Shown here piece by piece: positions 3,264 to 22,938 of a stretch of 36,325 bases of DNA. How positions within the stretch are numbered: the first letter of the stretch is position 1; each line of letters starts with the position of its first letter. Source of the DNA: Myxococcaceae bacterium (GTDB lineage Bacteria > Myxococcota_A > Polyangia > Polyangiales > Ga0077539); NCBI GenBank assembly GCA_004297725.1, contig SCUS01000043.1, positions 1 through 36,325 on the forward strand, read 5' to 3'. A program made the translations under genes and the position numbers. The notes beneath the pieces were generated by a model, which was not told where the DNA came from, did not search any database, and worked only from the letters and a program-made list of their open reading frames with translations.

Positions 3264-6067
3264 GAGGGGTCACCGGCCTGGGGCATGAGGACGTAGACGC
3301 CGATCACGTCGGCCGGCAGGAGCGCCTTCACCCCGTACCGCCCGCGCGCCTCGGAGGCGTCGCGCACCTCGCGGTGCTCCTTGAGCAGCGCGTCAGCGCG
3401 GCGCTGGGCGAAGGCGTCGAGGTCGGCCGTGCGCTCGCCGACGAAGCCGAGGGCTTGGGACGCCACCCGGGTTCTCGCGGCGGCCGGGAGGTCGCCGGCT
3501 GGGGGCGGGACGAGGAGCGCCAGCGCCGCGTCGCCCTCGACGAGCCGCGGCGTCGTGGCGCCCACCCATGCGAGCGCGGCCGCCTCCTCGACGAGCAGGC
3601 TGCTCACCACCCCAGCCCGCTGAACGGTGAGCTGGTGGCGCAGCCGCAGGATCGCCACGACGGTGCGCTTCGTCACCGCGGAGGATACCCAGCACCCGGC
3701 GCGGCCGAGCACCCCGAGGTCGTCCTGAGCGCCCACGGCGCCCGCAGCGAGCGTGCGCTCGAGGAGGGCCTCGGCGAGCACCGACACCAGCGGGTGGCTG
3801 CGGTGCACCGCGTGGCAACGCGCCGGGGGGGGATAGGCGAAGTCGATGAAGAGGGTGCCCGCGAGCCCCTCGGCGTCGAGCCGTTCCCGGAGGTCTGGGG
3901 GGAGCGTCGAGAGAGGGGCCTTGAAGCCGCTGCGCAGCGCCTCGAGGCCCGCGCCGAAGCGGGCCAGGGCCGCTCCGACGAAGCGCTCGACCTCGGCGCG
4001 GCCACCCACCGCCGCGAGCGCCTTCTTCCACTCGACGAGAACGTCTTCGGGCTTCATGCGGCGCTGCGCGAAGATCGTGAGGTTCTGCCTCGCCTTCTCG
4101 GCGGCGTCACTCCAGCGGGTGTCGAGCGTGAGGGCGTCGGGGCTCGCACCGAAGTCCAGGGACTGCTGCCGCATGTCGCCGCGCTTGCGCAGGAGAACGG
4201 CCTTCATGAGGGCCTGCGTCAACGTGTGGTTGTCGTCAGGGAGCGGCACCGACACGCCGAGCTCCTCGCGGATCTTGGTGGCCTTGCGGAGGATCACTTC
4301 GAGCACGGCCCCATCGACGGGGTTGTTCGCGCCGTAGATGAGCGTCGCGCGTACGGTCTTCTTCTTCTGCCCGAAGCGATCGACGCGACCTTCACGCTGC
4401 TCGTGGCGCGTGGGGTTCCACGAAAGGTCGTAGTGCACGACCGCGTCGAAGGCGTCCTGGAGGTTGATGCCCTCGGAGAGGCAGTCGGTGGCCACAAGCA
4501 CGCGGGACTGCTCGCTCTCGCCAAGCGCGTCGACCTTCTCGCGGCGCTCGTCGGAGGTGATCTCGCCGGTAACGACGCCGACGGCGACATTCTTCAGGCG
4601 CTCCTGGAGGTGCTTCGCCACATATCGCGCGGTGGCGATGTACCGGCAGAACACCACGGGGTTGAAGCCCTCCTCGACGAGCTTCTTCACGTGGTCGGAG
4701 AGCAGCGCGAGCTTGGGGTCGCCCGCCGTGCCGGCGAGATGCTCGGCCTGCGCGATGAGCGCGTCGAGCGCGGGGGCGTCGGATGCGACGGGAGGCTCGA
4801 GGTCGTCGTCGTCGAGCCGATCGGCGGCCCCGTCGAACACGCGGTCGACCAGGGTCTCGTCCTCACTCGCCTCGGTACCCGTTCCCGCGCGGGTACGCAG
4901 GGCCAGCAGGGCCGCCGCGGGCGACGAGGCGACGCAGCGCATGAGCGCGAGCGTCCCCCAGAAGTTGAGCCGCTGGCGGCGTGCGTCGCCCTCCGCCGCC
5001 GCGACGACCGTCGCGCAGTAGTCGAGCACGGCACCGAAGAAGCGCTCCCACGCGCCGCCGAGCTTGTAGGTGAGCTCCGTGGTGAGCCGCCGGGGGAAGA
5101 GTTCGCCTTCGCTCCACTCGGCGATGTCGGGTCGGCGGCGCTGGACGAAGTGCTTGGAGAGTTCGTCGCGGAGCTGGCGATGGGCTCCGCTCTGCGCGCC
5201 CTGCAGCGTCGCGAACGCCGGGTCGAGCAGCCCGAGCAGGCGGTAGAACGCCCCCTCGTCGCCGCTGTGCGGCGTGGCTGTGAGCAGCACCAGCTGCCGC
5301 TTTGAATCGGTCGCGAGGTCGGCCAGTAGCTGGTAGCGCTTCTGTTGTCCCTGGCCGGTGCCGGCGCAGGCGTGGGCCTCGTCAACGATCACGAAGTTGG
5401 GGCACGCCCGCAGGAAGTCGCTGCGCCGCTTGTCGTTCTTGATGTAGTCGAGGCTCACCACGGTGAAGGGGTGGGCGTAGAAGATGCTGTCTCCGACGGG
5501 CAGATCGCGCTCGAGGCGCGCGGCCCCGGTGGCCGTGACGGGTACCGCGCGGAGGTGGAAGCGCTCGTCGAGTTCGGCGGTCCATTGCTCGACGAGGTGC
5601 GGGGGGCAGAGGACGGTGAAGCGGTCGATGTCGCCGCGGTCGACGAGCTCGCGCGCGATGAGCGCGGCCTCGATGGTCTTGCCGACGCCGACGTCATCGG
5701 CGATGAGGAGGCGCACGACGTCGAGCTTGAGCGCCATGAGCAGCGGCACGAGCTGGTAGGCCCGCGGCTCGACGGCGATCTGACCGACCGCACGGAAGGG
5801 ACCGGCGCCCCGCCGCAACGAGAGCAGGAGCGCGTCGCGCAGGAGTGCCGCGGCACCGTGGCTCGCGACCTGATCGACGGTCGGAAGGGGGAAGGTCGCG
5901 TCGGTGACGGGCTCGACCTCGAGGCCCAGGTGCAGGAACGTCTGATCGGCCTCGGACCCGGAGATGGGACGTACGCGAAGCACCTCGGCGTCGCTGCCGT
6001 TGAGGACGATCCACTCTCGTCCGCGGGCGCGGACGAGGGAGCCGGGGCTGAACTGGGCAGTCGTCAC
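3260..6067 (-). CDS. SNF2-family helicase/translocase, DISARM DrmD-like
   Basis: Superfamily 2 Swi2/Snf2-type dsDNA translocase of 935 residues. Motifs in order: Walker A ADDVGVGKT (about 123-131), DEAH (229-232), LLTATPHSGDE (about 261-271), a helicase C-terminal half with VATDCLSEGINLQ (about 525-537), and the arginine-finger motif QREGRVDRFGQ (about 557-567). The DEAH/TATPHSGD/EGINLQ combination and the length match DrmD, the class 1 DISARM SNF2 helicase (family knowledge). The start is GTG at 6067, overlapping the DUF1998 helicase stop in a GTGA; the 3' end overlaps the methyltransferase start the same way. The three genes are thus one coupled operon. Inferred role: tracking on incoming DNA together with the large helicase, with methylation state separating self from non-self. 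RapA-like helicases are a more distant alternative; the context argues for defence. Confidence 0.88.
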   Translation of the reverse strand: MTTAQFSPGSLVRARGREWIVLNGSDAEVLRVRPISGSEADQTFLHLGLEVEPVTDATFPLPTVDQVASHGAAALLRDALLLSLRRGAGPFRAVGQIAVEPRAYQLVPLLMALKLDVVRLLIADDVGVGKTIEAALIARELVDRGDIDRFTVLCPPHLVEQWTAELDERFHLRAVPVTATGAARLERDLPVGDSIFYAHPFTVVSLDYIKNDKRRSDFLRACPNFVIVDEAHACAGTGQGQQKRYQLLADLATDSKRQLVLLTATPHSGDEGAFYRLLGLLDPAFATLQGAQSGAHRQLRDELSKHFVQRRRPDIAEWSEGELFPRRLTTELTYKLGGAWERFFGAVLDYCATVVAAAEGDARRQRLNFWGTLALMRCVASSPAAALLALRTRAGTGTEASEDETLVDRVFDGAADRLDDDDLEPPVASDAPALDALIAQAEHLAGTAGDPKLALLSDHVKKLVEEGFNPVVFCRYIATARYVAKHLQERLKNVAVGVVTGEITSDERREKVDALGESEQSRVLVATDCLSEGINLQDAFDAVVHYDLSWNPTRHEQREGRVDRFGQKKKTVRATLIYGANNPVDGAVLEVILRKATKIREELGVSVPLPDDNHTLTQALMKAVLLRKRGDMRQQSLDFGASPDALTLDTRWSDAAEKARQNLTIFAQRRMKPEDVLVEWKKALAAVGGRAEVERFVGAALARFGAGLEALRSGFKAPLSTLPPDLRERLDAEGLAGTLFIDFAYPPPARCHAVHRSHPLVSVLAEALLERTLAAGAVGAQDDLGVLGRAGCWVSSAVTKRTVVAILRLRHQLTVQRAGVVSSLLVEEAAALAWVGATTPRLVEGDAALALLVPPPAGDLPAAARTRVASQALGFVGERTADLDAFAQRRADALLKEHREVRDASEARGRYGVKALLPADVIGVYVLMPQAGDPS

Positions 6068-9000
6068 GAGGCTCTCCCGAGATGGCGCGCGAGCACCGCG
6101 AAGCTCTCGCTCCAGCGAGCTTCATCCGCGGCAAAGGCAATGATTTCGAACCCCTGATCCGCGAGCGCGGCGACTGCCTCGGCGGGTGCCTCGCCCACGG
6201 TGGCGGCGACGTAGTGGTTGCGCCACACGAGGTCGAGGGTCACCGCCGCAGAGACGATCGGGCGGGCGTCGGGCCCGGGCAGGCCGAGCGCGGCCGCCTG
6301 CTCGAACCAGCGCGCCCCCTGGGGTGAGAGGCCGTCCCTGGCTGCGACGACAGCGGGGGCCGCGCCGTCGCCACCGGCGGGTGCGACGATGTGCATCGTT
6401 GCGCGCGCGAGACGCAGGAGGATCTCTCGCGCAGCCTTGTCGCGCCGGTTGAGCAGCTCGTGGTCTGGTTGGTTGTAGTACGAGAGCAGGCAGCGGTAGC
6501 AGCCCGCCACGCAGGCGGTGTCGGGCTCATCGACCAGGCCCTCGATCGATCCGGGGAGCGCGGCATCCTCGACGTCGAGGTGAAGAATGGCGAGCGCCTT
6601 TCGCGCCACCGACGCGATCGCGCCCGGCTCGGCCACCAGTCGCGAGAGCACCCCGGCGCCCCCTTCGGTCGCCTCGTAGAACAGGAAGCCGTTGCGCCGT
6701 TCGCGCGAGGGCATGGGCTCGGCGAGCACCTCGCCCTCCTCAAGCTGGTAGACAGACTCGATGCCACGAAGCAGCGCGTGCTGCACGGTGGCCGCGGTGG
6801 CCTCTGCGGGGGTCGCGCCGGGGAGCTGCACCAGCAACGCGTTCTTCTGATCGCGCACGATCGGCACGATCTGCTGCCGTGCGGCCGCCGTCGGGTCGGG
6901 CGGCCCCTCGTCGTTCTCGTCTTCGCCCCGTGCCCAATAGCCCGAAATGGGATCGATGGTGTACCCGAGCTTCGACCGGTCGACCCGGCGCCGGAGGCCC
7001 TTGTTCACCCGGGTGATGCTCGCACCCGCGCCGTAGGCGAGGCGCACGATGTCGCCGTCCTGGTCGGCAGCAGCGCCCCGGCGCACGTCGAGGCCGTGAT
7101 CGCGCACGGCCCACTCGAAGGTCGTCTGCAGCTCGAAGCCTTGGCGCTGGCGCTCTTCGACGTTGGCCGTGATGCGCTCGGCCGGCTGGGTTGCGACATT
7201 CTCGATGCGGTAGAGGTTCTCGATGCGCTCGGCTTCGCTGAGCGGAAGGCCGCACGCATGGCAGACCGATGGCGCCTCGTCGAAGTGTCCGGCGCCGCAC
7301 GACCGGCAGATTCGCACCGCCTTGGTGGGCAGGTGCGCTTCGGCTGTGGAGCTATCGCGCTGCCCGAGCGTGAGCATCGCGCGGGCGACGCGGAACGCGC
7401 GGCCCTCGTGGTAGACGAGGCTCCGGGGGCCGAACTCCGAGAGGGCCAGGAAGCGCGGTCGCTGGAGGTACGTCTGCCGTCCGCGGTTGTCCTTGGTGCT
7501 CGGGATGAACGCCATGAGCGGCAGCCGCGGGAAGTTGTAGCCGGGGAGGAACCCCTCGGTGGCGAGGTAGCGGTACGTGTAGAAGTCGTTCGTCGAGCTG
7601 CCGCTGTCCTTCTGGAGAAGGGAGAGCTGCTCTATCGCTTGTGCGTGTCGCCCCTGCGCGCTCCGCCGATCCTGCGGGGGCGCCGCGTAGTCGTCCATCG
7701 TGCGGCGCGCGGCGTCACGCTGCTCCTCGGCGGCGGAGAAGAGCTCGCGCCAGCGATTGAAGGCGCGCTCGAATCGGCCGAGGCTCTGCGCCGCGAGGTC
7801 GGCAGCGTACCGATCTCGCCCCGTGTACCAGGGCGCGGCCGAGGTCGTCAGGTCGTCGGTGAGCATGTCGAGCACGCGCCCCATGCGGGCGGCGGCCTCG
7901 TCGGCGACTCGAGGACGCGCGAGGGGCGCGCGCACCTCGGGGCGCAGCGGGCGCCCGACGGCTTTCAGGTCGAGGAGCTCGGCGATCGAGCCGTCGAGGG
8001 GCTCCTCGGAGGCCGCGAGCCACACGGCCTGAAGGTGACTATCGACGAGGTCGCGGTTGGCGAGCTCGAGGGTCGGCGGCCTGACCTCGCCGTGCACCAT
8101 CGCCTTGGGATTGCGGAAGAAGTACTGGTCGTGGGGCCCCTGCGCGGAGCAGTAGGTCAGCACGAGCGCGGCCTGGCCGCTGCGGCCCGCGCGCCCCGAT
8201 CGCTGGGCGTAGTTGGCGGGCGTCGGCGGGACGTTGCGTAGGTACACGGCGTTGAGCGCCGAGATGTCGACGCCGAGTTCCATCGTCGGCGAGCAGAAGA
8301 GCACGGGGAGAAAGCGGCCGGCCTCGCCCAGCTCGCGTAGGTGCTGCTTGTCCTGCTCGAGGGCGGCCTTCTCTTCGGTCCCGTAGCGGAAGCGCTTCTC
8401 GCGCACGGCGCGGCGTTCACCGTCGACCTGCGCGGTGTGCTCGCGCGCCTCGAACCCGAACAGAGGATGCACGGGCGCGCGCAGCATCGCGGCGAGGTTG
8501 GCGTAGTAGTCGCGGAAGAAGGGGTTGGCCTTGTCGGTGGGCGTGCCGACCTTGAAGAGCACGCACGAGTCAACGAGCTGCCAACCCTGCGCCCCGTCGA
8601 AGGGGGTGGACTCCTCAGATACCAGCCCGTGCTCCTTGGCGGTCGCGAGGAGCGCGTTGATGAGCGCTTCGAACTCTGCCGTCTTCAGGTCGCGAATCGC
8701 GCCGGTGCTCCAGAGCTTCGGTCGCCGCAGGAGCTTGCCGAGCGCGCTCCGAGTGCCGCCGCGCACGACGAGGTCTTCGTCGCGGAGGGTGGTCTCCTTG
8801 GGGGCGGGCGCCTTCACCATGAGATAGCGCCCGGGCCGCGGGTGCTCGTCGGAAGCGAAGCCCCACGGTGAGCGCAAGCGGCTGTGCGATCGCGCCGCCA
8901 TCTTCTCGATCTCCTGCCCGTCGAGCACGAGGCTCTTGATCGCCATGCCCTGACGAAGGTGGTCGAAGAGGGCATGGAAGACCTGCGCCCGTACGGTGGG

Positions 9001-11385
9001 CGACGCGTGGCGGAGGAGGGACGGAGCGCTGGCGAAGAGCGCCTCGTCCTCGGCCAGAGCTTCGAGGCCGTCGTACTCGACCGCGAGGAGACCGAGCTGT
9101 TCGAGGTTGGGGTTCGTGAAGCGCCAGCCGCGGCGCTGATCAAACCAGACCCGGTAGGCGAGCACCTCGCGCAGCGTGCGCTCGGCTTCGGTGAGGTTGT
9201 GCCCCTTGAGGTCGGGCTCGTGCAGCCACTCGGCGCGCACGTCCGCAGTCCGACGGTCGAAGCCGAGCGCCTTCTGCTGCGCCCCGCCGAGCTGCTCGCT
9301 GCGGAGGCCCTCCGGTCCCGCCTGCAAGAGCGCGCCGAGGAAGCCCGCGCGCACCAGGCTCACGAACAGGAAGTCGTTGAAGTGCCCCGCTTGCAGGGCC
9401 GCGTCCTGGCGGTTGTCGGTGAAGCCGAGGAGCTTCCGCTTGTCGGTGTCGAGCTTGGACTTTCCGCCATGCATCCATCGAAGGACGCTGCCGACCAGCA
9501 CCGTGGTGGCGGAGCTGCGCCCTTCCGCGGAGAGCGAAGAGAGCCGGTTGCGGTCGCGGGCGGAGGTACCGACGGTGTCGCCGCAGCGCAGGCAGAACCG
9601 ATATTTCCCCGGTAGAAACCACGCGCGTGCACCACTCCGTGCGGTGCCGTCAGGGGAGACCCGGCACGCCTCGGCGCGGGCCTTGCGGTAGTTGGGCTTG
9701 AGCTTGGGGTTGCCCGCGGCGTCGAACTGCACCCACGCCTCGGGGTAGTCCTCGATGCGGTCGTCGAAAGTGAATTCCGGGTCGGCGCCGTGGAGCGTCA
9801 GGAAGCCGAAGCGCTCCCTCGAGTCGCCCTGCTCGGTGCGATCGGTCGGGTCGCTGTCCGGTCGTTCGGGAACGCTATCGTCGATGTCGCGAGGCACGAA
9901 GCGCAGCGTGCCGTCGTCGTCGAGGCGGCGGACGGGATGATACTCGTGGCCACACTCCCGACAGAAGTGCAGGGGGTAGAGCCGCTTCTCCGGGCTGCCC
10001 GGCAAGAATAGCTGCCCATCGACGGTCACCACGCGCTGGCCGGGGGCCTCGAGCGTCGAGAAGGCGTGCCCGGCTCCGGAGATGAACTGGTGGAGCTTGA
10101 ACGGGAAGAAGCTGCGACCGCTCGCGGTGTCGACGCCGGTGCGGTCGATCTCGGGGACGCTCGAGATGAGGAGCATCTCGCGGAGTGCCTTGCGGCATGC
10201 ATCGGGCGATCGCCCGGCGTCGGCTGCGAGGGCATCGACGGCCTGGGTGAGGGTCTTCGGGCGCGCGCGGAGCCAGCGCTGGTCGGCGTCCGAGAACGTG
10301 ATGCCGAGTCGCGTCTCGACCCACACCGCGAGCGGATGAACGCGCAGCGACGCATCGGAGACGCTGGGCGCGAGGGCTTCGTCGATGGCGGGACCGAGGG
10401 CGCCGCGCACTGACTCCGCGGTCTGCATCGCGTCGGTGGTGCGCTCGAGGGTTTCGGCGATGACGTTGGTCTCGGCGATGGCCAACGAGAAGAGCTTCGT
10501 CGCGACCTGCCCGACCACCCGGTTCTTGTCCACGAGGGTGCCCTCGCTGGCCATCGTGGCCGAGGTGCCGATGCACTGGAGGCGCTCCGGCGAGAGGCGT
10601 TCGCGGACACGTCGCACGAGCAGAGCGACGTCGGCGCCCTGGCGGCCGCGGTACGTGTGGAGCTCGTCGAGCACGAGGAACCGCAAGCCCGCGCAGTGCT
10701 CCATCACGCGGCGGTCGGTCTCGTCCTGCCGGGTCATCAGCAGCTCGAGCATCATGAAGTTGGTGAGCAGGATGTCCGGCGGCTCGGACGCGATGCGCTT
10801 GCGCTCCTCGTCCTTCTCCTGCCCCGTGTAACGGGCGATGCTGACGGGAGCATCGCCCTGCACGTTCTTCAGGAACTTGTTGATCTCCTCGAGCTGGCTG
10901 TTGGCCAGCGCGTTCATCGGATAGATGATGATGGCGCGTGTGCGCTTCGGGCCGCCGCGTGACCTGGCTTCGAGGATCGCGCTGACGATCGGCACGAAGA
11001 AGCAGAGCGACTTGCCCGATCCGGTGCCCGTGGTGACGACGAAGCTCTCACCACGTGCGGCCACCGCCACGGCCTGCTCCTGGTGCTTGTGCAGCCGCAA
11101 CGTCTCGCCGCGTGTCGCGCCCGGGGCGGCCGGCGCGCGGAAGATGTCCGCGCAGCCCGGGTGCAGCCCGCCGTTGGCGACCAGCGCGTCGATGGTGAGG
11201 CCCGGCCGGTAGTTCGGGTTGATCTGCAGAAGCGGTTCGGGCCAGTAGCGCGCCCCGGCGTAGATGGCGTCGATCTGCTGCTGGATGTCGGCCGCGAAGA
11301 TGGTGGTGAACGACGTCGCGAACCGCTCGTACTCATCGACGACGGTGTCTCGCAGCGAGAAGACGTCCATACTCTGTGCGCTCAT
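6064..11385 (-). CDS. Giant DEAD/DEAH helicase with DUF1998-type Cys motif (DruE-like / DrmA-DrmB-like fusion)
   Basis: Superfamily 2 helicase of about 1773 residues. N-terminal region (1-100) precedes Walker A TGTGSGKS (119-126) and a DELH box (240-243). After a long insert, the second RecA lobe has MELGVDIS and QRSGRAGR (about 1025-1065). CxxC pairs lie near 472 (FCRECG), 596 (FCLRCG) and 1358-1380 (ICRSCG, CHACG). Near 1620-1640 the DUF1998 signature CVAGCYRCLLSY appears. The size and helicase-plus-DUF1998 layout match Druantia DruE and long defence-island relatives; DISARM splits these parts between DrmA and DrmB. The start is ATG 11385, preceded by GGTGGAG about 7 nt upstream; an in-frame ATG 177 nt upstream has no ribosome site and a low-complexity Arg-rich leader. 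First gene of the leftward operon with the SNF2 helicase and methyltransferase. Probable function is ATP-driven recognition or remodelling of phage DNA; no nuclease motif is seen. Confidence 0.87.
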   Translation of the reverse strand: MSAQSMDVFSLRDTVVDEYERFATSFTTIFAADIQQQIDAIYAGARYWPEPLLQINPNYRPGLTIDALVANGGLHPGCADIFRAPAAPGATRGETLRLHKHQEQAVAVAARGESFVVTTGTGSGKSLCFFVPIVSAILEARSRGGPKRTRAIIIYPMNALANSQLEEINKFLKNVQGDAPVSIARYTGQEKDEERKRIASEPPDILLTNFMMLELLMTRQDETDRRVMEHCAGLRFLVLDELHTYRGRQGADVALLVRRVRERLSPERLQCIGTSATMASEGTLVDKNRVVGQVATKLFSLAIAETNVIAETLERTTDAMQTAESVRGALGPAIDEALAPSVSDASLRVHPLAVWVETRLGITFSDADQRWLRARPKTLTQAVDALAADAGRSPDACRKALREMLLISSVPEIDRTGVDTASGRSFFPFKLHQFISGAGHAFSTLEAPGQRVVTVDGQLFLPGSPEKRLYPLHFCRECGHEYHPVRRLDDDGTLRFVPRDIDDSVPERPDSDPTDRTEQGDSRERFGFLTLHGADPEFTFDDRIEDYPEAWVQFDAAGNPKLKPNYRKARAEACRVSPDGTARSGARAWFLPGKYRFCLRCGDTVGTSARDRNRLSSLSAEGRSSATTVLVGSVLRWMHGGKSKLDTDKRKLLGFTDNRQDAALQAGHFNDFLFVSLVRAGFLGALLQAGPEGLRSEQLGGAQQKALGFDRRTADVRAEWLHEPDLKGHNLTEAERTLREVLAYRVWFDQRRGWRFTNPNLEQLGLLAVEYDGLEALAEDEALFASAPSLLRHASPTVRAQVFHALFDHLRQGMAIKSLVLDGQEIEKMAARSHSRLRSPWGFASDEHPRPGRYLMVKAPAPKETTLRDEDLVVRGGTRSALGKLLRRPKLWSTGAIRDLKTAEFEALINALLATAKEHGLVSEESTPFDGAQGWQLVDSCVLFKVGTPTDKANPFFRDYYANLAAMLRAPVHPLFGFEAREHTAQVDGERRAVREKRFRYGTEEKAALEQDKQHLRELGEAGRFLPVLFCSPTMELGVDISALNAVYLRNVPPTPANYAQRSGRAGRSGQAALVLTYCSAQGPHDQYFFRNPKAMVHGEVRPPTLELANRDLVDSHLQAVWLAASEEPLDGSIAELLDLKAVGRPLRPEVRAPLARPRVADEAAARMGRVLDMLTDDLTTSAAPWYTGRDRYAADLAAQSLGRFERAFNRWRELFSAAEEQRDAARRTMDDYAAPPQDRRSAQGRHAQAIEQLSLLQKDSGSSTNDFYTYRYLATEGFLPGYNFPRLPLMAFIPSTKDNRGRQTYLQRPRFLALSEFGPRSLVYHEGRAFRVARAMLTLGQRDSSTAEAHLPTKAVRICRSCGAGHFDEAPSVCHACGLPLSEAERIENLYRIENVATQPAERITANVEERQRQGFELQTTFEWAVRDHGLDVRRGAAADQDGDIVRLAYGAGASITRVNKGLRRRVDRSKLGYTIDPISGYWARGEDENDEGPPDPTAAARQQIVPIVRDQKNALLVQLPGATPAEATAATVQHALLRGIESVYQLEEGEVLAEPMPSRERRNGFLFYEATEGGAGVLSRLVAEPGAIASVARKALAILHLDVEDAALPGSIEGLVDEPDTACVAGCYRCLLSYYNQPDHELLNRRDKAAREILLRLARATMHIVAPAGGDGAAPAVVAARDGLSPQGARWFEQAAALGLPGPDARPIVSAAVTLDLVWRNHYVAATVGEAPAEAVAALADQGFEIIAFAADEARWSESFAVLARHLGRAS

Positions 11386-11912
11386 CGTGGCTCCACCCCC
11401 CGTCAGGCCGATCGACAGGGGCGAGAGGATAGCGGCTCCGTCGCGCGATGTGCAGCCCGAAGTTTTTCTGCCTGCGCGCGAAACACGCTGGCCGCCGCGT
11501 GAGACGACGGCGCTCGCGGCACGCATGGTTGCCTCCAGCGAGATGGAGCGACGGACGAGCATCTCCTCGTCGGCCGCGTCGCGGCGGTGATGTGAACGGG
11601 ATGGCCACCGAGCGTTGCGCGGGGCGGCTTCTCGGGGCGTTGTCCTGGGCCAACGAACGGGACGCGGCGGCGCTCCTGGCGGAATTGGCGGATGATGCGG
11701 AGCCGCACGTGCTCAGAAGCCACCAGCCGAGCCGCGCCTCGTCGTCGATCAGATCTTCCAGATCGTCGCGCAGGGGTTACGGGGTTGCGCCAGGAGAGGT
11801 GGGCGAAGTGCGTCGGACCACCCGGCAAGGGCTTCAGCGCTCGCGAGCTTTGGTTCTTCCAGAGTTTGTGCGGAGCATCAGCGCGCCGAGCACCCGTGCG
11901 CGCTCGAGTCAC
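11386..11912. other. Intergenic gap between the two leftward operons
   Basis: About 530 bases with no gene I can support. Open frames on both strands are Arg/Pro/Ser-rich and lack motifs or ribosome sites. The promoter of the large helicase operon should lie at its left end; no clear -35/-10 pair is visible. A short rightward stretch near 11.8 kb reads somewhat protein-like and could be gene debris. Confidence 0.5.
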
Positions 11913-13505
11913 CTATGCCGGAACGCTGACGGCCTGCTCGACCCAGGTCGCGAGCACCTCGCACAGCACGAGCGCGTCCGCTGGGTTTGCTATCTTGTTC
12001 TGCGAGAGGGTGTACGACAGGCCCGCGAGCTGGAGCAACGCAACGTCGAGCAGTTGCACGGCATAGGCGGCGCCGTCACATCTCGACAGGGCCTCTCGCC
12101 GAAGGGCCCGGACAAGCGCTCGGGTGGACAGGTATTGCTCGGGGAGCCCGGGCGGGACGGAGGCCTCGGCGACGTCGCGACCATCGAAGAGATCCCGACA
12201 GCACTCCACCAGGCTCTGCGCACCGTCGCAGCGCTGGTGGAGCACCAGGCTCACCTCCAGGGTCGCGAGGTCGCGACCGTAGATCGCGGGACTCGGTCCA
12301 CCCGCGTCGATGACGTAGGCCCGCGCGCCTTGCCCGGGATCTATGTCGATCGCGACGTTGTCGATGTGCAGATCGCCATGGTGGTAGGTCTGCGCACGGA
12401 CCGGTCGGCGAGCCTGGACACGTGCCAGCCGAACGTAGAAGGCGATGAGCGTGTTGACCTGGTCGGAGACGCGAAGCGCCTCCGCGGCGCGACGTAGGTC
12501 CGCCTCACGATTGATCCCGTTCGGCGTCGCGAGGAGGGACGCAACCGCCCTATCCTCCTGGCGAAGATCGGACAGGCCCTCCAACTGCTGCGCGACGTCC
12601 GCGGCAAGCTGGTCCACCTCCGACGCAGCTCGAGGCTCGCGCGAGAGGAGATCGCGGAGGGGCATGGGTTCACGATCGCTGAGAACCGCATTGTCCGTCA
12701 CGAGCAGTCCCCGGCTGTGGCTTCCGATGCTGCCCACGACACTGACATGGCGCAGCTTCTGCGCCGATCGCTTCGCTGCAAGGGCGGATACGTCGGCGCT
12801 CGCGCGCGGTTCCAGCTTGAAGAACCGCGAACAGGAACGCTCATACCCATCGCGGAGGAGCACGCGTCCGAAGAAGACCTTCGTCCACTCTGCGAGCGCA
12901 CCGGAGCGCGGCCGGGTCGCGCTCCACCACCGCAGATCGAGCCCTATCTGCTCGCGGCGCGTCAGGACGTATCGCCGGAGCAGGTCGTCCTCCCGGGGAC
13001 TCAGCGTCGGGCGGGGTTCGTCCCCGTTCTCGCGCACGTGAACCCCAACGTCCACATACTCGCAGGCCTTCTCGCACGCCGCTCGCAACCCTGCGTCCAG
13101 GTTGTCCGCCGCCTTGTTGAGCGTTGCACCATAGTGGAACTGTTCTCGCAACTGCGTCCCCAAGCCCTCCAGGTTGGCGACGTGGTTCAGCCGTCCGGTG
13201 ACGATCACGAGAGCCGGCACCGGGAACTCGTCCCGCTGCGCGAGCGTGCGGACGAGTGCGAGTCCCCGTACTTGTCCCTCCTCGGCGTCGCCGCCGCGCG
13301 ACTCCGGCAGCCCGAGGTCCAGCACAACGACGTGAAAGATCTGCGGGCCGGCGAGGATGGACACCGCGTCGTCGTAGGTCGCTGCGTAGCGCGCGGTGAT
13401 GCCGGGAAAGTCCTTCTCGAGGACACGCACGTGCGTCCGGTATGCCTCGACCATCCGGTGCTCGTCTTCGATCACCAGCAACTGGAGTGCGCGCGGATAG
13501 CTCAT
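11913..13505 (-). CDS. Response-regulator receiver domain fused to an APH-like kinase fold
   Basis: 530 residues in two parts. Residues 1-135 form a REC domain: acidic pair E13/D14 (VIEDEH), phospho-acceptor D63 (VVVLDLGLPES), conserved Thr near 103 (VIVTGR) and Lys near 131 (TLNKAAD). Residues about 190-530 look like an aminoglycoside-phosphotransferase-type kinase: possible ATP lysine K230 (FFKLEP), Brenner motif HGDLHIDN (376-383), a metal-binding Asp in YVIDAGG (397-403) and RDLATLE (411-417). Known: REC outputs are usually DNA-binding or enzymatic; REC joined to an APH kinase is not a standard pair. Inference: phosphorylation by the adjacent histidine-kinase-like protein switches the kinase domain on or off. 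The start ATG overlaps the stop of that gene in an ATGA, so the pair is made in a fixed ratio. The substrate is unknown; resistance by drug phosphorylation seems unlikely in this context. Confidence 0.8.
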   Translation of the reverse strand: MSYPRALQLLVIEDEHRMVEAYRTHVRVLEKDFPGITARYAATYDDAVSILAGPQIFHVVVLDLGLPESRGGDAEEGQVRGLALVRTLAQRDEFPVPALVIVTGRLNHVANLEGLGTQLREQFHYGATLNKAADNLDAGLRAACEKACEYVDVGVHVRENGDEPRPTLSPREDDLLRRYVLTRREQIGLDLRWWSATRPRSGALAEWTKVFFGRVLLRDGYERSCSRFFKLEPRASADVSALAAKRSAQKLRHVSVVGSIGSHSRGLLVTDNAVLSDREPMPLRDLLSREPRAASEVDQLAADVAQQLEGLSDLRQEDRAVASLLATPNGINREADLRRAAEALRVSDQVNTLIAFYVRLARVQARRPVRAQTYHHGDLHIDNVAIDIDPGQGARAYVIDAGGPSPAIYGRDLATLEVSLVLHQRCDGAQSLVECCRDLFDGRDVAEASVPPGLPEQYLSTRALVRALRREALSRCDGAAYAVQLLDVALLQLAGLSYTLSQNKIANPADALVLCEVLATWVEQAVSVPA

Positions 13506-14521
13506 CGTTCGATGGTCGGAAGGGAAAGTACAACGCGATGGCGGCGTGCGGGCACCTCTCGCAGCTCGGCCGACCCGCCGAGCCGCGTGACCGCGTCCCA
13601 GACCTCGAGGAGCCCTCGACCGCGGCGGCGGCCACCCTTCGTGCTGAACTGAAGGACAAACGCGCGTTCGACGTCCGCGGTCGGAAAGCCGGGACCGTTG
13701 TCGAGCACGGTGAGCAGCAGCGAGCCTCCCGTCGCGGCGACCGAGACGGTGATCTGGCAGGGACCGGTCACCGCTTGCCGGGCGTTGTGCCAGAGGTTGG
13801 TAAACGCGGTGTCGAGAAAAAACTCGCTTGACGCAACGCGACGCTCGCGCGCGTTCTCGTCGGCGAGAACCTCGTAGCCCATGCCGCCGAACGCGGCGGC
13901 GAAGGACCGCAGGTGTTGCTCGATCCAGGCGCAGAGCCGAACGGGCCGTACCTCGAAGTACTCGTCACCCTCCTCGACCTCGATCGAGCGTCCGAGCTGG
14001 CGAAGCGCGTCCCTGACCGCGGCAAGGTAGGGCTGCACGCGGGCCAGCAACTGGTCTCCGCCTGCCGCGTGCAACTCAGACGTCAGCCGATCGACCGAGA
14101 GTCCCGCGGGAGGGAGGCCGTTGCGAACGCGGTGCTGGAGCCGCCCTGAGACGTACCGGTACGTCTCGAGGATCGAGGGCGGCGAAGCCGCAGGGCCCCG
14201 GCGCGAAGAGGGGGGGCGTTCGTCCTCCGCGAGGGCGGCTTGGATCGCGCGCAGTGCGAACTCGTCCGTCTCCGTGCGTCGCCACTCGGCGACGATCTCG
14301 ATGACGCTGGAGCGCGCCGGATGGCCCATGAGGGCGCGCGCCACGAGCTGGCGCAGGCGTCCGTCGGCGGGTGAGCGGAGGCGGGCCATGACCTCCCGAA
14401 CGAGGCCGAGCGCCGCGCTGTCGAGCAGCGCGGAGATTCGCGCCTTGGCGGCCAACGGGTCCGCGAACGCGAGTTCGCGGAGCTGCCGAATCGTCGCGTC
14501 GGCCTCGTCAGCTGCGGCCAT
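13502..14521 (-). CDS. Cytoplasmic histidine-kinase-like ATPase
   Basis: 339 residues. Residues 1-100 are helical and HEAT-like (short repeats around VREVMARLRS, LVARALMG and FALRAIQAALAE). A DHp-like helix follows with LQHRVRNGL, where H130 is the best phospho-acceptor candidate. The GHKL ATPase domain has an N-box (NLWHNARQA, N246), a G1 box (LDNGPGFP, D274) and FSTKGG plus GRGLLEVWD as the G2 region. No membrane segment or signal peptide, so the sensor is cytoplasmic. The start ATG 14521 overlaps the SMC-like ATPase gene by 14 nt; a longer frame to 14617 lies wholly inside that gene and is rejected. The stop overlaps the REC-kinase start. Likely role: relay from the ATPase (or a ligand of the HEAT-like part) to the REC domain. 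DHp assignment is inferred from one motif and position; the ATPase boxes are clear. Confidence 0.8.
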   Translation of the reverse strand: MAAADEADATIRQLRELAFADPLAAKARISALLDSAALGLVREVMARLRSPADGRLRQLVARALMGHPARSSVIEIVAEWRRTETDEFALRAIQAALAEDERPPSSRRGPAASPPSILETYRYVSGRLQHRVRNGLPPAGLSVDRLTSELHAAGGDQLLARVQPYLAAVRDALRQLGRSIEVEEGDEYFEVRPVRLCAWIEQHLRSFAAAFGGMGYEVLADENARERRVASSEFFLDTAFTNLWHNARQAVTGPCQITVSVAATGGSLLLTVLDNGPGFPTADVERAFVLQFSTKGGRRRGRGLLEVWDAVTRLGGSAELREVPARRHRVVLSLPTIER

Positions 14522-16409
14522 AGCGCTGGCGACGAAGGTCGAACGCCGCCGCGCCTCCCTCGAGCAACTCGATGATGTCCTCGCGGCACTCGTCGAGAGA
14601 GCCAACCTTTCGCACAAATCCGCGTCGGCCGTCGGAGTCCATCACGACGATGCAATCGGCCTCACCCAGCACGGGGATGTTCGCGTTGTGCGTGATGAAC
14701 AGCAGCTGACGCGTGGGCTTGAGGCGGCGAATGCTCTCGACCACAGTGCGGAAGATGAAGGCGTTGTCGAGGTTGTCCTCGGGCTGGTCGACGACGAGCG
14801 GCGTGCGGCGACGCGCGAGCAGGAGCGGCAGCAGCGCGGTGCACTTCTGGCCGCGCGAGAGGTGAGCGGCGTCTCGGTAGATCGCGTCGTCGGGCGTGCC
14901 CACGTTCAGTTCGATCGAGACCACGTCGTCGGACGGCAGCACCTCCAACGTCAGCGGGTCGAGCGCCTGGCGAAGCGCGTCGAGCACCCGCTTCGCGCGG
15001 TCGGCGCCGAAGCGGCAAACCGCCTCGAACTCGCCCAGGTTGTCCGCGCGGACGATCTGCGCGAGCTCGTCGGGCCGAAACCGCGTCACGCTCTCGACGA
15101 TCGCGTCGTGCTGGCGGAGCCCGGACCCGTGGAGCGCCTGGCTCACCAGCTGCTGGTACTCGAGGGTGTCCGCGCTGCGACGCAGGCCGAGTCGGACCTG
15201 GCCGGGGACCACAGCCATCAGCTCGCCAACGACCTCCTCGCGGAGCGCTGAAACGCGCTCGCGTAGCACGAGATACTTGGCCTTGAGGGACTGGCGTTCG
15301 ACGAGCAACGCCTGCTCGTCGCCCCGTGCCGCGGTCTGTCGCGCCTCGAGTTGCGCGAGTCGAAGGACCGCGCGCTCTGCGTCCGAACGTTCTCGCACAG
15401 CGGCTTCGGCGACGCGGTCCCGCTCACGCAGCTGTGCCGAGGCTGAGGCCTGACCGAGATGCGCCTCGGCGAGCAATACCTCCGACGCGCGCAGCGCCAC
15501 GCGGGCCGCGTCGATGGCCCCCTGGATCGCCGCGACATGCTCGGTGACAGCGGAGTGCAATACGGCCAGCGTCTCGTGGAGCGAGGCCGCGAGCGCGGCG
15601 TTCGCGGACTGCGCCGCGGCGATCTCCGTCGGCACGTCTCGCGCCGCGGTGGTCGCCACCCTGAGGCAATCCGCCTCGACGCCCGCGAGCGCGTCGAACA
15701 GTTTACGCGCACGCTTCTGCTCCGCCTCGTTGTGAAGCCGCTGCTGGTCCGCCGTGGCGAGAGCAGCTGCGTGCTCGGAGGCCGGCGCCACCGGGAGCGC
15801 CGCGAGGCGGTCCCGCGCGTCCACCAGCGCCTGCGCTTCCTCGGTGAGGTCGACGAGCCCGCGGCGGGACGCCCTGATGCGGTCCGCGCTGGCCTCGAGC
15901 CCGCGTCGTGCTTCCGCGATCTCGCCTTGGATCTCCAGCAGGTCCGTCGCGCGCAACTCGTCGAGCAGGCCCCGGCGCCTGGGCCCAAGCGTCTCGTCGG
16001 CGATCGTCTCAATCTCGGCGCTGGTGTACGCATCCAGGGGCAGGAACGTGCCGCGATCTAGCGCGACCGCCGAGAGGACCTTGCCCTCGCCCGTCGTGAG
16101 TACGGCGGGTTGGCGGCCCTCGCGTCGGACGACGAACGTCTGACCGTCATGCTCCGAGCGAGCGCGCAGGGTGATCGCCGACTTGGCGAGGTTCGAGCGG
16201 AAGAGTTCCTGCCGGTCGCGCGAGGCCCCTTCGACGCCACCGAGCCCGCCGCGGATGGCTTCCGCCAGCGTCGACTTCCCGCTCCCGCGCGGGCCGATAA
16301 TGCACGTCAGGCCCTCGGGGAGTTCAATCGAAACAGCCTCAAGAAAGCCACCGCGGATGTCGATCGAGCTGAGGAACCAACGATTCTCCACGGGGTGATT
16401 CAATCCCAT
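14508..16409 (-). CDS. SMC/RecF-type coiled-coil ATPase
   Basis: About 633 residues with split ABC-type ATPase halves. Walker A GPRGSGKS lies at 39-46. A long Ala/Glu/Arg-rich coiled coil fills about 120-420. The C-terminal half has ABC signature LSRGQK (517-522), Walker B PLVVDQPED (537-545) with NLDN, and H-loop ITHNANIP (572-579). The DQPEDNLDN and THNANIP strings are characteristic of the TrlF/RecF-like ATPases found in phage-defence genes; the PHP nuclease domain of TrlF is absent. First gene of a three-gene operon. I chose ATG 16409 because the fold begins there (VENRWFLSSIDIRGG); a GTG about 50 nt upstream (near 16455) is possible, and the extension to 16640 is low-complexity. Inferred role: sensing DNA ends or unusual DNA structures and passing the signal to the kinase-like partner. 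Confidence 0.83.
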   Translation of the reverse strand: MGLNHPVENRWFLSSIDIRGGFLEAVSIELPEGLTCIIGPRGSGKSTLAEAIRGGLGGVEGASRDRQELFRSNLAKSAITLRARSEHDGQTFVVRREGRQPAVLTTGEGKVLSAVALDRGTFLPLDAYTSAEIETIADETLGPRRRGLLDELRATDLLEIQGEIAEARRGLEASADRIRASRRGLVDLTEEAQALVDARDRLAALPVAPASEHAAALATADQQRLHNEAEQKRARKLFDALAGVEADCLRVATTAARDVPTEIAAAQSANAALAASLHETLAVLHSAVTEHVAAIQGAIDAARVALRASEVLLAEAHLGQASASAQLRERDRVAEAAVRERSDAERAVLRLAQLEARQTAARGDEQALLVERQSLKAKYLVLRERVSALREEVVGELMAVVPGQVRLGLRRSADTLEYQQLVSQALHGSGLRQHDAIVESVTRFRPDELAQIVRADNLGEFEAVCRFGADRAKRVLDALRQALDPLTLEVLPSDDVVSIELNVGTPDDAIYRDAAHLSRGQKCTALLPLLLARRRTPLVVDQPEDNLDNAFIFRTVVESIRRLKPTRQLLFITHNANIPVLGEADCIVVMDSDGRRGFVRKVGSLDECREDIIELLEGGAAAFDLRRQRYGRS

Positions 16410-17127: not shown

Positions 17128-20073
17128 TCATGCCAGCTCAAGTTCCCAGATGCCGTCCTCGACGCGCCGGAGGCGCAGGCTGCGGCCCTTCGCGTCGCCG
17201 ACGCTGTCGCTGCCCGTGGCGAGACGGAGGACACCCGTCGCCACGTTCTCTGTCCCGTCGCCCTCGCGGATCACGTTGATCGCGACCTTCGCGACTTTCG
17301 CGCGGTAGCGCTTCGACTCCCAGGCGATCGTGACCCACGCGCCGATCGCGCCGCAGACGCGCGCCTCGGGACCCAGCATGAGGCACAGGTGGTCGTCGCC
17401 GTTGCCGAGCACCTTGCCGACGACCTCGCCATGCCCCGGTCGCCGACGCGCGAACTCATACAACCTTGCGTCGGTGCGCTCGACCATCGCCCCGAAGACG
17501 ACCGGCGCCGGGACGTCGTCGGCCCGCCGTACGCTGAACTCCTCGCCCCGCAGCGTGAAGGTCCGCGGGTGCGCCTCGGCGAGCACCGCCATCGGGTAGC
17601 GGCGCGGAATCTCCGTGGAGTCTGCCTCGTCGAGTCGGCTGCGCCCGGTGGTCGGGTCGACGAAGTAGCGCCCCACGGCGGGGTGACGCGATGCGATCCG
17701 TTCGCGAAAGAGCCCAGCGCCCTCACGCACGGTAACCCGATCGGCACCCCGATCGGCCATGGCGCCGAGGAGCACCATCTTGTGCGGTCCCGTGAGGTTC
17801 GTGCTCTCGATGGTGGCGAGCAGCTCCCTCGCGGACGCGGAGCGGGCGAGCTGCAGGTCGGCGGCGTCGCCCACCCCGGCCTGGAGAAGCAGGTCGAGCC
17901 ACGAGCCGAACAGCTTGACGATGGTCGCCGTCGAGAGCCCGGTGCGCGAGAGCACCGCCGTCAGCGAGGGGCGCCCTCCGTCGGCGTGGAGGGCCTGCAC
18001 CGCGGCGACGAGGCGCGCCCGCGGTCCCTGCGCAGCGCGCTCGATGGCCCGCACGGCGTCGAGGGCCTCCGGGGTGAGGTGGACTTCGCGGCCATCGTTC
18101 CATTGCCGCGCGTAGGTCGCGTTGGGGGGGGCACGCGCGATTTCGTCCGACGAGACGCCCAGGAGCTCGAGACGCGCCCGCGCGCGACGGTGGTTGCCCA
18201 CGAGGTCGAGCACCGTGAGCGCCGTCTTGCCGGGGTGAAGCCGCAGGCCGCGGCCGATCTGCTGGAGGAAGACCGTCGGCGAGTCCGTAGGGCGCAGCAG
18301 CACCACGCGGTCGATCTCGGGCACGTCGATGCCCTCGTTGAAGACGTCGACCGCCACGATCGCGTCGAGCCTCCCCGCGCGCAGATCGTCGAGGGCCCGC
18401 CCGCGCGCCGCCGCACCGGGGCCGCTGTGCACGCACGCGACGCGCATCGAGGCTCCGCGCAGCGCCTTCGCGGTGTGCTCGGCGTGGGCGATCGACACGC
18501 AGAACACCAGGCTCCGCGTGCCCGCGTGGCGCGGGTCGGCGAGGGCCGCGAGCACGCAGTCGGTCCGCGCGCCGCGGAGCATCGCAGCCTCGAGGTCGTC
18601 GTCGCGGTACCCGGTCGGGCCGCGGGTGGCCGTGAGCTTCGAGTAGTCGACGGGGTCGGGCACGCCGAAGTAGTGGAATGGGACGAGCCAGCCCACGCGA
18701 ATGGCTTCGAGGAGCGTGCGCTCCCAGGCCACTACGCCGTCGAAGAGGGGATAGATGTTGGCGCCGTCGAGGCGCTCGGGGGTGGCGGTGAGGCCCAGCA
18801 CGAAGCGGGCGCGCGATCGCGTGAAGAGACGCTCGTAGCTGCCGGCCGCGCCGTGGTGCGCCTCGTCGACGACCACGTACGCGAAGTCCGCGAGGGTGGC
18901 GTCGTCGATCGCGTCGAGGCTCCACACGGAGGCGTACACGTGGTCGGATCGGACGGACTTTTCGTCCTGGTGCACGAAGCCGTGCGTACCCGTGCGGACT
19001 CGCTCGAAGGCTTCGCGCGCCTGCACGAGCAGCTCCTGACGGTGCGCGACGAAGAGCACGCGACCTTGGCCGGGCGGGACGACCACGAGGGAGTCGAGCG
19101 CCGCGAGGATCGTCTTGCCGAGTCCCGTCGCCGCCACCACGAGCGCCCGCGTGAAGCCCTGCGCGCGCACCGCGGCGAGTGCGGCGAGCACCTCGCGCTG
19201 CGCCTCGTTGGGGGTGACCTCGTCGCGGGTGGGCTCCGGGTCGAGGAGCGTCGCCGGAGGTAGGAAGGTGCGCGCCCGCGCCTCCCACCGGGCGATCGCG
19301 GCGGCGTCGAGGGGGACGCCCTCGCGCCCGAAGAGGACGTCGAGGCGGTCGCGCGCCTCGTCGAGAAGGGAGGCCGCGCTTGCGTCGTCGAGGGCGAGGT
19401 TCCACTCGAGGGCGTCGTGAGCGCCCGTGAGGGCGCTGCTCGAGAGGTTCGACGAGCCGACGAAGAGACTCACGAAGCCGCCGCGCGTGACGATGCGATA
19501 GACCTTCGGGTGGAAGTGCCGATCGGGGTCCTCGACGAAGCGCACGTGCGCCTGGGGGAAGTGCGCGGTGAGGGCGTGGAGCGCGTGCAGCGCGTCGGGC
19601 CGCGTTCCACCGAGGTAGCAGCCGGCGAGCAGGCGGAGGGCGCAGCCGCGGTCGAGCGCGTCGCGGAGCTCGCGCTGCACGAGCGCGACGCCGCCGCGGG
19701 TGACATACGCGACCACCACGTCGAGGTGGGTCGCCTCTGCGAGGAGCGGACGCAGGCCGTCCCACAAGGACGGCGCGTTGCCGGCGAAGAGCCGCGCGCC
19801 GTCGCGCGCCGCGAAGACCGACGGCGCAAGGGCCTCGCCCCGGACGAGGCTCCGCTCAGGCATCGCGGGGCGCGTGAGAACGTCGGCGAGGGCGCGCAGC
19901 TCGGCAGCGTGGCGCGCGGCGTCGCTGGAGTCTCCGCGCAGTTCGGCGCGCGCGAGGAGCCCGGCCACGCGGTGGGCCTCCTGCGCTGCCGCGACGCGAT
20001 AGGAATCGGCGGGCAGGCGAACCACCGAGTCAGGCTCGCAGGGGTCACCGAGCCATCGAAGACGATGAACCAT
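17128..20073 (-). CDS. PLD-family nuclease / DEAD helicase / DUF3427 protein
   Basis: 981-residue fusion. Residues about 110-250 form a phospholipase D-type nuclease half with H188-x-K190 (HFHPKVYRI) and GSSNLSSSAL (206-215). The SF2 helicase follows: Walker A AATGLGKT (314-321), DEAHHG (403-408), FVLGLTATPERLDG, the second lobe with VDVFNEGIDVPEID and the arginine motif QQIGRGLRLH. The C-terminal part (about 780-981) has the length and place of DUF3427. Such proteins are common defence-island ATP-dependent nucleases. One HKD motif per chain implies a dimeric active site, as in other PLD enzymes (family knowledge). The start is ATG 20073 with a weak GAGGG 4 nt upstream. It stands alone on the minus strand, with about 700 bases to the next leftward gene, so it is probably its own unit. 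It could supply the nuclease missing from the helicase-methylase operon, which is inference. Confidence 0.86.
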   Translation of the reverse strand: MVHRLRWLGDPCEPDSVVRLPADSYRVAAAQEAHRVAGLLARAELRGDSSDAARHAAELRALADVLTRPAMPERSLVRGEALAPSVFAARDGARLFAGNAPSLWDGLRPLLAEATHLDVVVAYVTRGGVALVQRELRDALDRGCALRLLAGCYLGGTRPDALHALHALTAHFPQAHVRFVEDPDRHFHPKVYRIVTRGGFVSLFVGSSNLSSSALTGAHDALEWNLALDDASAASLLDEARDRLDVLFGREGVPLDAAAIARWEARARTFLPPATLLDPEPTRDEVTPNEAQREVLAALAAVRAQGFTRALVVAATGLGKTILAALDSLVVVPPGQGRVLFVAHRQELLVQAREAFERVRTGTHGFVHQDEKSVRSDHVYASVWSLDAIDDATLADFAYVVVDEAHHGAAGSYERLFTRSRARFVLGLTATPERLDGANIYPLFDGVVAWERTLLEAIRVGWLVPFHYFGVPDPVDYSKLTATRGPTGYRDDDLEAAMLRGARTDCVLAALADPRHAGTRSLVFCVSIAHAEHTAKALRGASMRVACVHSGPGAAARGRALDDLRAGRLDAIVAVDVFNEGIDVPEIDRVVLLRPTDSPTVFLQQIGRGLRLHPGKTALTVLDLVGNHRRARARLELLGVSSDEIARAPPNATYARQWNDGREVHLTPEALDAVRAIERAAQGPRARLVAAVQALHADGGRPSLTAVLSRTGLSTATIVKLFGSWLDLLLQAGVGDAADLQLARSASARELLATIESTNLTGPHKMVLLGAMADRGADRVTVREGAGLFRERIASRHPAVGRYFVDPTTGRSRLDEADSTEIPRRYPMAVLAEAHPRTFTLRGEEFSVRRADDVPAPVVFGAMVERTDARLYEFARRRPGHGEVVGKVLGNGDDHLCLMLGPEARVCGAIGAWVTIAWESKRYRAKVAKVAINVIREGDGTENVATGVLRLATGSDSVGDAKGRSLRLRRVEDGIWELELA

Positions 20074-21954: not shown

Positions 21955-22320
21955 TCAGGCGCGTCGAAGAACCGCGACGCGATCGCGCTCCAACATCACC
22001 ACGCCCGCGTCGTCCCGACCCAGTTCAGCGCCCAGCACGGGCCAGGCTTCGTCCAGGAGTCGCAGAAGCGTCTGCGTCGAAGCGTTGCCCACACCGAGAA
22101 GGAGCACCACCGGAGGTGCGCCCCGCACCGCCGCGAGGTCGAGAAAGTCCTTGTCCTTGCTGACGACGACGGCCCCCTCTTCGGCGGCGAGCCGCCAGAT
22201 CTCAGCGTCGGGCAGGCGCAACCCGTCCGGCAGGTCGACGACGTGTCGGGCCTCGTGACCGCGGGCGACGAGCCAACCGACAAGCCTCGGCGGCAGCTGC
22301 GCGTCGATCAGGAACTTCAC
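21955..22320 (-). CDS. DUF5615 PIN-like toxin
   Basis: 121 residues. Starts VKFLIDAQLPPRLVGWLVAR, then GHEARHVVDL, LPDAEIWRLA, VVVSKDKDFLDLA and VVLLLGVGNAST. This is the DUF5615 (Mut7-C/PIN-like) pattern, with acidic residues at D6, in DAEIW and in KDKDFL forming the presumed nuclease pocket. Members are predicted RNases of type II toxin-antitoxin pairs. GTG 22320 overlaps the antitoxin stop in a GTGA, giving strict coupling; an upstream in-frame extension lies inside the antitoxin gene and is rejected. Its place next to the att site fits a stabilisation or addiction function for the neighbouring island. Confidence 0.87.
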   Translation of the reverse strand: MKFLIDAQLPPRLVGWLVARGHEARHVVDLPDGLRLPDAEIWRLAAEEGAVVVSKDKDFLDLAAVRGAPPVVLLLGVGNASTQTLLRLLDEAWPVLGAELGRDDAGVVMLERDRVAVLRRA

Positions 22321-22550
22321 GCCGCGTCGCGGCGGATGGGCAGCTCCTCGCGCCGCGCCTGTCGAGCCGCGAAGTCGAGGCAGGCGGCGATGTCCTCGCG
22401 TTCGAGGTAGGGGTAGTCCGCGAGGATCTCCTCGGTGGTCATGCCGCCGGCGAGGAGTTCCAGGACGTCGGCCACCGCAACGCGCAGACCCCGGATGGTG
22501 GGCCGACCGCCACAGACGCCGGGGACGAGGGTGATGCGGAATTCGGACAT
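22317..22550 (-). CDS. DUF433 antitoxin
   Basis: 77 residues. ITLVPGVCGGRPTIRGLRVA, then VADVLELLAGGMTTEEILAD and YPYLEREDIAACLDFAARQA form the classical DUF433 layout: a short beta start followed by a winged-helix-like core. Partner of the downstream DUF5615 toxin and probably the operon's autorepressor, as in VapB-like antitoxins (family knowledge). ATG 22550 has GGAGA about 8 nt upstream. The two genes form a complete type II pair. Confidence 0.88.
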   Translation of the reverse strand: MSEFRITLVPGVCGGRPTIRGLRVAVADVLELLAGGMTTEEILADYPYLEREDIAACLDFAARQARREELPIRRDAA

Positions 22551-22745
22551 TGGTGATCTCTCCGGAACGCGGGCCGACGTGACGCTCGCAGGCTACCACC
22601 AGGACCGACGTGGCGCGTACGCGAGCGTGCCCGCGCTCGGTACCATCGGTGCTCGACGGACAACGTCATGGACCTCACGTTCACGAGCCCCCCGCTGCCG
22701 TCCGCGGCACGTGGCGCTGCCCCCCACTTTGCCCCCCTCGAAGAC

Positions 22746-22821: not shown

Positions 22822-22830
22822 GCTTTCCGG

Positions 22831-22879: not shown

Positions 22880-22900
22880 GAGAAACCTCTAGAGAATCGT

Positions 22901-22933: not shown

Positions 22934-22938
22934 GTCGT

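Follow-up and report, generated by a model that had tools for sequence, protein, structure and literature searches.

The 36,325-nucleotide window analysed here, one complete contig (SCUS01000043.1, assembly GCA_004297725.1) from a Myxococcaceae bacterium, holds a trio of minus-strand genes (Table 1) coding, in the order of transcription, for an ABC ATPase resembling SMC and TrlF proteins, a histidine kinase, and a protein that joins a receiver domain to a domain of the APH/choline kinase type (henceforth REC-APH). The ATPase and kinase genes overlap by 14 nucleotides and the kinase and REC-APH genes by ATGA; REC-APH and the ATPase each have a single match in their own 9.39-Mb assembly. A first-pass annotation of this DNA had proposed that the three genes form one operon, had named their domains and had pointed to a phosphorelay from H130 of the kinase to D63 of the receiver. 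The overlaps and the recurrence of the genes in the same order elsewhere bear out the operon, and the domains are recovered by Pfam and NCBIfam matches and, for the kinase and REC-APH, by the folds of AlphaFold models.

Table 1. Genes, domains and key codons of the trio, in window coordinates
Feature	Coordinates	Strand	Basis or conservation
SMC/TrlF-like ABC ATPase, 633 aa, without PHP domain, predicted sensor	14508..16409	-	
Walker A codons of the ATPase, residues 39-46	16272..16295	-	G39-S46 invariant in 5 sequences
Histidine kinase, 339 aa: helical-repeat N-terminus, DHp helix pair, HATPase_c	13502..14521	-	
Helical-repeat (HEAT-like) N-terminal domain of the kinase, residues 2-101	14219..14518	-	Six helices in model; profile alignment to sister kinases
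H130 codon, predicted phospho-accepting histidine	14132..14134	-	Invariant in 13 sequences and, in another alignment, 11
REC-APH, receiver fused to APH/choline-kinase-like domain, 530 aa, predicted output enzyme	11913..13505	-	
Receiver domain, residues 4-153	13047..13496	-	
D63 codon, predicted phospho-accepting aspartate	13317..13319	-	Invariant in 34 sequences
APH/choline-kinase-like domain, residues 166-527	11925..13010	-	
HGDLH catalytic loop, residues 376-380	12366..12380	-	HGDL invariant; invariant N383 and D400 downstream

The ATPase carries a Walker A motif (GPRGSGKST), an LSRGQK signature, a Walker B region (DQPEDNLD) and an H-loop (THN). Pfam matches it to AAA_21 and AAA_23, with SMC_N, spanning residues 24-578, just below its cut-off. 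Its nearest NCBIfam model is TrlF (NF045780), which aligns with residues 12-631 at 265.5 bits against a cut-off of 350 and covers only positions 289-944 of the 944 in the profile, that is, the ATPase part; the Ppl anti-phage model (NF042955) gives 94.7 bits against a cut-off of 1000. By these scores the protein belongs to neither family.

In the AlphaFold model of the kinase (mean pLDDT, the predicted local distance difference test, 81.4; pTM, the predicted template modelling score, 0.52), residues 2-101 form six helices, residues 115-179 a helix pair with H130, and the remainder the HATPase_c domain, so that the predicted DHp-CA core sits behind the helical-repeat domain. The order of elements is that of a two-component kinase, with a histidine on the DHp helix followed by HATPase_c with its N- and G-boxes, and H130 and the residues of both boxes are invariant across 13 kinases. 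Two-component systems are a very common signalling device of bacteria, and those of their inputs that are known are mostly chemical or envelope signals. No membrane segment was seen in this kinase when the sequence was inspected by eye, and its input is therefore probably internal.

The AlphaFold model of REC-APH combines a receiver fold, with the acidic pocket, phospho-accepting aspartate and lysine of that family, and an APH/choline-kinase fold with the catalytic residues of the superfamily (HGDxxxxN...D). Across 34 REC-APH sequences D63, K131, HGDL, N383 and D400 are all invariant; with H130 and D63 both fixed in their alignments, the residues of the proposed relay are in place, and transfer between them is likely. 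Two identities for the output domain were set aside, the second provisionally. The label of an antibiotic-resistance enzyme does not suit a protein with an attached receiver and about 10-18% identity to its structural matches. The TCAD9 family (PF19974.5, cut-off 40 bits) scores 24.9-35.0 bits in all five relatives scanned and 29.9 in the window DNA; PF19974.5 is not listed for the window protein, PF19974.6 is attached in the database to 53 of 78 REC-APH relatives, and the matches, which are sub-threshold and recur in 7 of 14 control genomes, are apparently non-specific.

A scan of genome contigs with the REC-APH alignment gave four loci, in a member of the Bryobacteraceae (L002), a planctomycete (Planctomycetota, L003), Fimbriiglobus (L004) and a member of the Armatimonadetes (L005), which together span the phyla Acidobacteriota, Planctomycetota and Armatimonadota. 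Each has its ATPase, kinase and REC-APH genes ordered as in the window, with the kinase and REC-APH genes overlapping at positions 10001-10004. Thus, the earlier expectation that the trio would be found together elsewhere came true, and the outcome named as its refutation, homologues that do not co-occur, did not arise. A database comparison points the same way: among 78 REC-APH clusters, 14 share a longest contig of exactly equal size with listed ATPase clusters (120 of the 307 ATPase clusters were listed and compared); when the sizes were shifted by 1-50 bases in 2000 rounds, the number averaged 0.5 and never exceeded 4. Full-length REC-APH is rare: among 282 genomes of the window's phylum the one case is that of the window itself, and the phyla of the genomes holding L003 (G283) and L002 (G282) give 1 of 392 and 2 of 396, respectively; these searches scored the best 3-7 candidates per genome, and further copies may be missed. 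Of the 39 genomes that match in the window's phylum, 38 have only partial matches (at most 27.2 bits) and were left aside, these not being full-length REC-APH. Carriage by phages or plasmids was likewise set aside, as REC-APH had no tblastn match in a phage or a plasmid collection and no relative was confirmed in one IMG/VR scan.

The ATPase and kinase extend well beyond these five loci. An ATPase search of the 392 genomes around G283, again scoring the best 3-7 candidates per genome, found 24 loci in 16 genomes; with G283's own locus and the longer, PHP-type L089 removed (leaving 23 and then 22), there are 22 PHP-less loci (L062 and L068-L088), here termed sister loci. The kinase is the next gene downstream of the ATPase at all 22, and a receiver protein follows it at 20 of the 21 loci where this can be judged, the contig of L062 stopping after the kinase; at L084 the kinase is split across two frames. 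Eighteen of these 22 kinases were recognised by position and then used to build a kinase profile; kinases outside that profile reach 158-363 bits with it (L081, L084, L086 and L088 and, from the window's phylum, L104, L105 and L107), and five of them 169-324 bits with a cleaned profile. HATPase_c was found by Pfam in all of four sister kinases, with HEAT_2 above its cut-off in L071 and L083 and below it in L068 and L107, and a profile-profile alignment joins window-type and sister kinases over 302 columns from residue 23 on (probability 99.1, E 1e-18). The Walker A pattern is present in 28 of 28 trios, and the LSxGQK signature and Walker B region in 27, L107 departing. The parts therefore keep company in the sister loci, as the trio itself does elsewhere, and a chance neighbourhood can be rejected.

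It is in the output that the sister loci differ. Among ten sister receivers scanned with Pfam (L068, L074, L075, L083, L085, L086, L087, L088, L104 and L107), Response_reg passes in all and APH is listed for none; a helix-turn-helix (HTH) family exceeds its cut-off in three (L068, L075 and L087), falls just under it in two (L074 and L086) and is absent in five, and the shorter receivers, judged by eye, resemble winged helices towards the C-terminus. As these ATPase-kinase pairs adjoin receivers without APH, some of them with HTH, the trio looks like one branch of a larger family with an exchangeable receiver output, and the module like a DNA-sensing two-component system. The first-pass reading holds for the domains and the operon and is incomplete beyond them: with its kinase output, the trio makes up one branch of a wider family built of ATPase, histidine kinase and receiver.

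The members of the module also appear to share a history. Over 28 trios the distances among ATPases, kinases and receivers correlate at 0.933, 0.900 and 0.931, none of 5000 permutations reaching as high, with near-copies and a deep split in the sample inflating these values; within the 23 sister trios they are 0.912, 0.868 and 0.907. In the ATPase tree, whose bootstrap is not fully settled, all five REC-APH loci cluster together with 100/100 support, and the sister and PHP-type loci fall outside this cluster. The simplest reading is a single exchange of the output domain on a conserved sensor-kinase pair, in either direction.

Further observations concern the wider family. With the same limit on candidates scored per genome, the ATPase matches in 9 of 250 genomes of the window's phylum, namely the window, the trios L104, L105 and L107, one ATPase standing alone (L106) and four proteins with long frames, of which three were retrieved, and in 4 of 159 genomes around G282, which are G282 itself and three with long-frame proteins. 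The long TrlF-type relatives L089 (3210-7213, its PHP domain sub-threshold) and L109 (3-4228) have as their next gene one for a protein that combines SLFN_AlbA_2 and HATPase_c_4 domains, and at L108, L110 and L111 the gene after the long ATPase begins similarly, as judged by eye; since long relatives adjoin such Schlafen AlbA_2-HATPase proteins, there seem to be two ways in which members of this ATPase family are partnered by GHKL-fold proteins. At L104 a Ser/Thr protein kinase gene (8184-9011) lies about 0.2 kb after the receiver gene, where the kinase function may reside in a separate fourth gene, and at L069 an HNH_2 endonuclease gene (3608-4789, minus strand), possibly a further output, directly follows the receiver gene. 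Near-identical copies of a sister trio share one genome in two cases (L072 and L077 in G637, about 93 kb apart; L080 and L082 in G650), which suggests recent duplication or transposition. The upstream DNA of four small groups of the sister branch (15 loci) yielded no convincing motif for a shared operator.

In characterised relatives, SMC-type heads close on ATP and act on DNA, and HEAT repeats are usually protein-protein surfaces. On this basis it can be proposed that the ATPase would bind DNA and sense an abnormal state of it, and would then contact the helical-repeat domain of the histidine kinase and trigger it. The phosphate would likely pass from H130 to D63, whose phosphorylation would activate, rather than repress, the attached APH-like kinase; this in turn may modify a nucleotide, a metabolite or a protein and so stop the growth of the phage or plasmid, or of the host cell itself. 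To the reading of the trio as such a two-component relay, from a DNA-sensing ATPase through the kinase and D63 to an APH-like output and with a likely role in defence against mobile DNA, a probability of about 0.58 may be given. The broader thought that these loci represent an unnamed class of intracellular DNA-surveillance immune relays, in which an SMC-like ATPase reads invading DNA, a HEAT-type kinase relays the signal and the receiver output is exchangeable (switching transcription in some branches and, in that of the window, phosphorylating a small molecule or a protein), is more tentative and falls somewhat short of an even chance.

The defence part of the proposal leans on the neighbours. 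The trio of the window is flanked on one side by a PLD-helicase gene and on the other by a helicase/methyltransferase cluster. The latter (3-11562, minus strand) comprises an Eco57I/DrmMI-like methyltransferase cut by the contig end, a DpdE/DrmD-like SNF2 helicase (DpdE 600.7 bits) and a DruE-like DEAD helicase of 1832 aa with an MZB domain, and in its make-up resembles a mixture of components from Druantia, DISARM and Dpd. The former (17128-20073, minus strand) codes for a PLD-nuclease-like and helicase protein with a sub-threshold homing-endonuclease-associated repeat, its best PADLOC match being a type IV methyl-directed restriction enzyme. Farther along (21955-24546, minus strand) are genes for a DUF5615/PIN-like protein and a phage-type integrase (22939-24546), the latter hinting that the island is mobile. 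One might suppose from the DruE/DpdE/DrmMI-like neighbours, which share the trio's strand at a distance of some 0.35-0.5 kb, that the trio is an accessory or regulator of the cluster at 3-11562. Other loci inspected, however, have different neighbours, and blastp with the proteins of the window system finds no relative in the roughly 10 kb around each trio at L002-L005, which makes the idea very improbable; membership of the trio in the flanking cluster was rejected on like grounds, the helicase, SNF2, methyltransferase and PLD-helicase proteins of the window having no blastp match at L002-L005, L041 or L042.

At the sister loci, the trio of L068 starts about 24 bp after a BrxL gene, that of L079 adjoins a type I restriction-modification pair, and that of L086 starts about 33 bp after the gene of an OLD-like ATPase, itself beside a type III restriction-modification enzyme. 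Ten proteins, chosen by eye, were scanned for further neighbours: recombinases or an integrase are encoded right beside the trio at L070, L078, L082 and L087, and at L068 at a distance of about 2 kb. These neighbours bear on a rival reading, in which the same relay would serve as a regulator of host DNA damage or replication stress, managing stress on the chromosome instead of acting in immunity, with the sister branch switching on repair genes and the APH branch tuning a metabolite or protein by phosphorylation. The predicted DNA-binding HTH in three of the ten sister receivers and the resemblance of the ATPase to the heads of Smc and Rad50 would suit such a regulator, as would the lack of any PADLOC match among ten neighbours tested at L002-L005. 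Against it stand the restriction- and BREX-type genes adjoining the trio in the window and at L068, L079 and L086, the recombinases and integrases just mentioned, and a distribution unlike that of core stress genes, patchy within phyla and with near-identical extra copies in some genomes. On balance the stress regulator is fairly unlikely, and for the relay proposed above a role in defence is plausible from its genomic setting.

Several points weigh against that relay and its defence role. The trio can come apart: at L106 the ATPase stands by itself, L073 lacks the receiver, and L041 (in G933, 11799-14356) has a kinase with a shortened start and REC-APH with no ATPase match, being a remnant or a reduced form of the trio. 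HEAT_2 is not detected by Pfam in the window kinase, which has a weak EAD1 match (16.6 bits) instead; a single sister-kinase profile gives just 12-23 bits for four of the five window-type kinases and nothing for that of L005; and there is no PADLOC match for the kinase or REC-APH and no NCBIfam match for REC-APH. As for the neighbours, those scanned at the sister loci and at L041 were chosen by eye and are not an unbiased count of defence genes; of the five loci scanned in this way with PADLOC, L087 has secretion genes upstream and no match, and the matching SoFic-like and PDC-M21B genes upstream of L041 are some 2-6 kb off. The defence role suggested at the outset is therefore weakly supported, by the window, three sister loci and the vicinity of L041, and not by the four other complete REC-APH trios.

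L041 also bears on another possibility, that REC-APH is a growth-stopping kinase, like HipA, held in check by the ATPase and histidine kinase and freed when a phage causes their loss or blocks them. The gene overlaps are tight, the kinase domain looks active from its residues, and HipA-family kinases act in defence (PMC13092281). A locus that keeps kinase and REC-APH without the ATPase is nonetheless hard to square with the ATPase as a restraint, and the invariance of D63 and K131 speaks in favour of a phosphorylation switch; such poison control is accordingly rather improbable.

Should the broader class of DNA-surveillance relays be borne out, two firsts would go with it: a two-component system whose input is DNA, received through an SMC-type ATPase, and an APH-type kinase under the direct control of a bacterial phosphorelay. 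With its SMC-family ATPase and adjoining histidine kinase, the conserved cassette is a testable candidate for the sensing of DNA by phosphorelay; the differing outputs behind related sensors offer a natural comparison for finding the signal, and the kinase branch points to a kinase target and possibly to a new antiviral chemistry.

Among known systems, the ATPase of the window is related to the ATPase part of the PHP-SMC proteins TrlF and Ppl, but lacks their PHP domain and stays under the cut-offs of both families, and the long TrlF-type relatives (L089 and L109) differ from the trio in having a Schlafen AlbA_2-HATPase protein as partner. REC-APH shares fold and catalytic motif with APH(3'), APH(4), choline/ethanolamine kinases and maltokinase, but has a receiver and only the low identity given above, and offers no reason for an antibiotic-resistance label. 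In PorXY, PorX is, like REC-APH, a response regulator with an enzymatic output; that output, however, is a PglZ phosphodiesterase, and an SMC-like ATPase is not mentioned for PorXY in the passage concerned (PMC12839542). The VMAP/iSTAND ternary conflict systems (PMC7159879, PMC8195603) have receiver and APH-type kinase domains among their effectors, but are centred on MoxR-vWA and have receivers without histidine kinases, whereas the trio encodes its histidine kinase next door. A figure legend of the DefensePredictor study names HATPase and REC among predicted systems, a possible overlap with the trio (PMC13092281). No account of the trio turned up in searches of the open-access full texts of PMC; as more than half of these came back empty, this is weak evidence of absence.

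The closest known idea is Detocs, whose effector, as reportedly described by Rousset et al. in 2023, is fused to the receiver. Its best-described effector is an ATP-cleaving PNP, a domain that Pfam lists for none of the three trio proteins, whereas the trio has an APH-like kinase and an SMC/TrlF-like ATPase and is set apart from Detocs by that description. Other Detocs effectors exist, and by analogy with these a Detocs-like mode of action is possible for the trio. What the two would have in common is a defensive two-component layout of three genes (PMC11249213) with an enzymatic effector.

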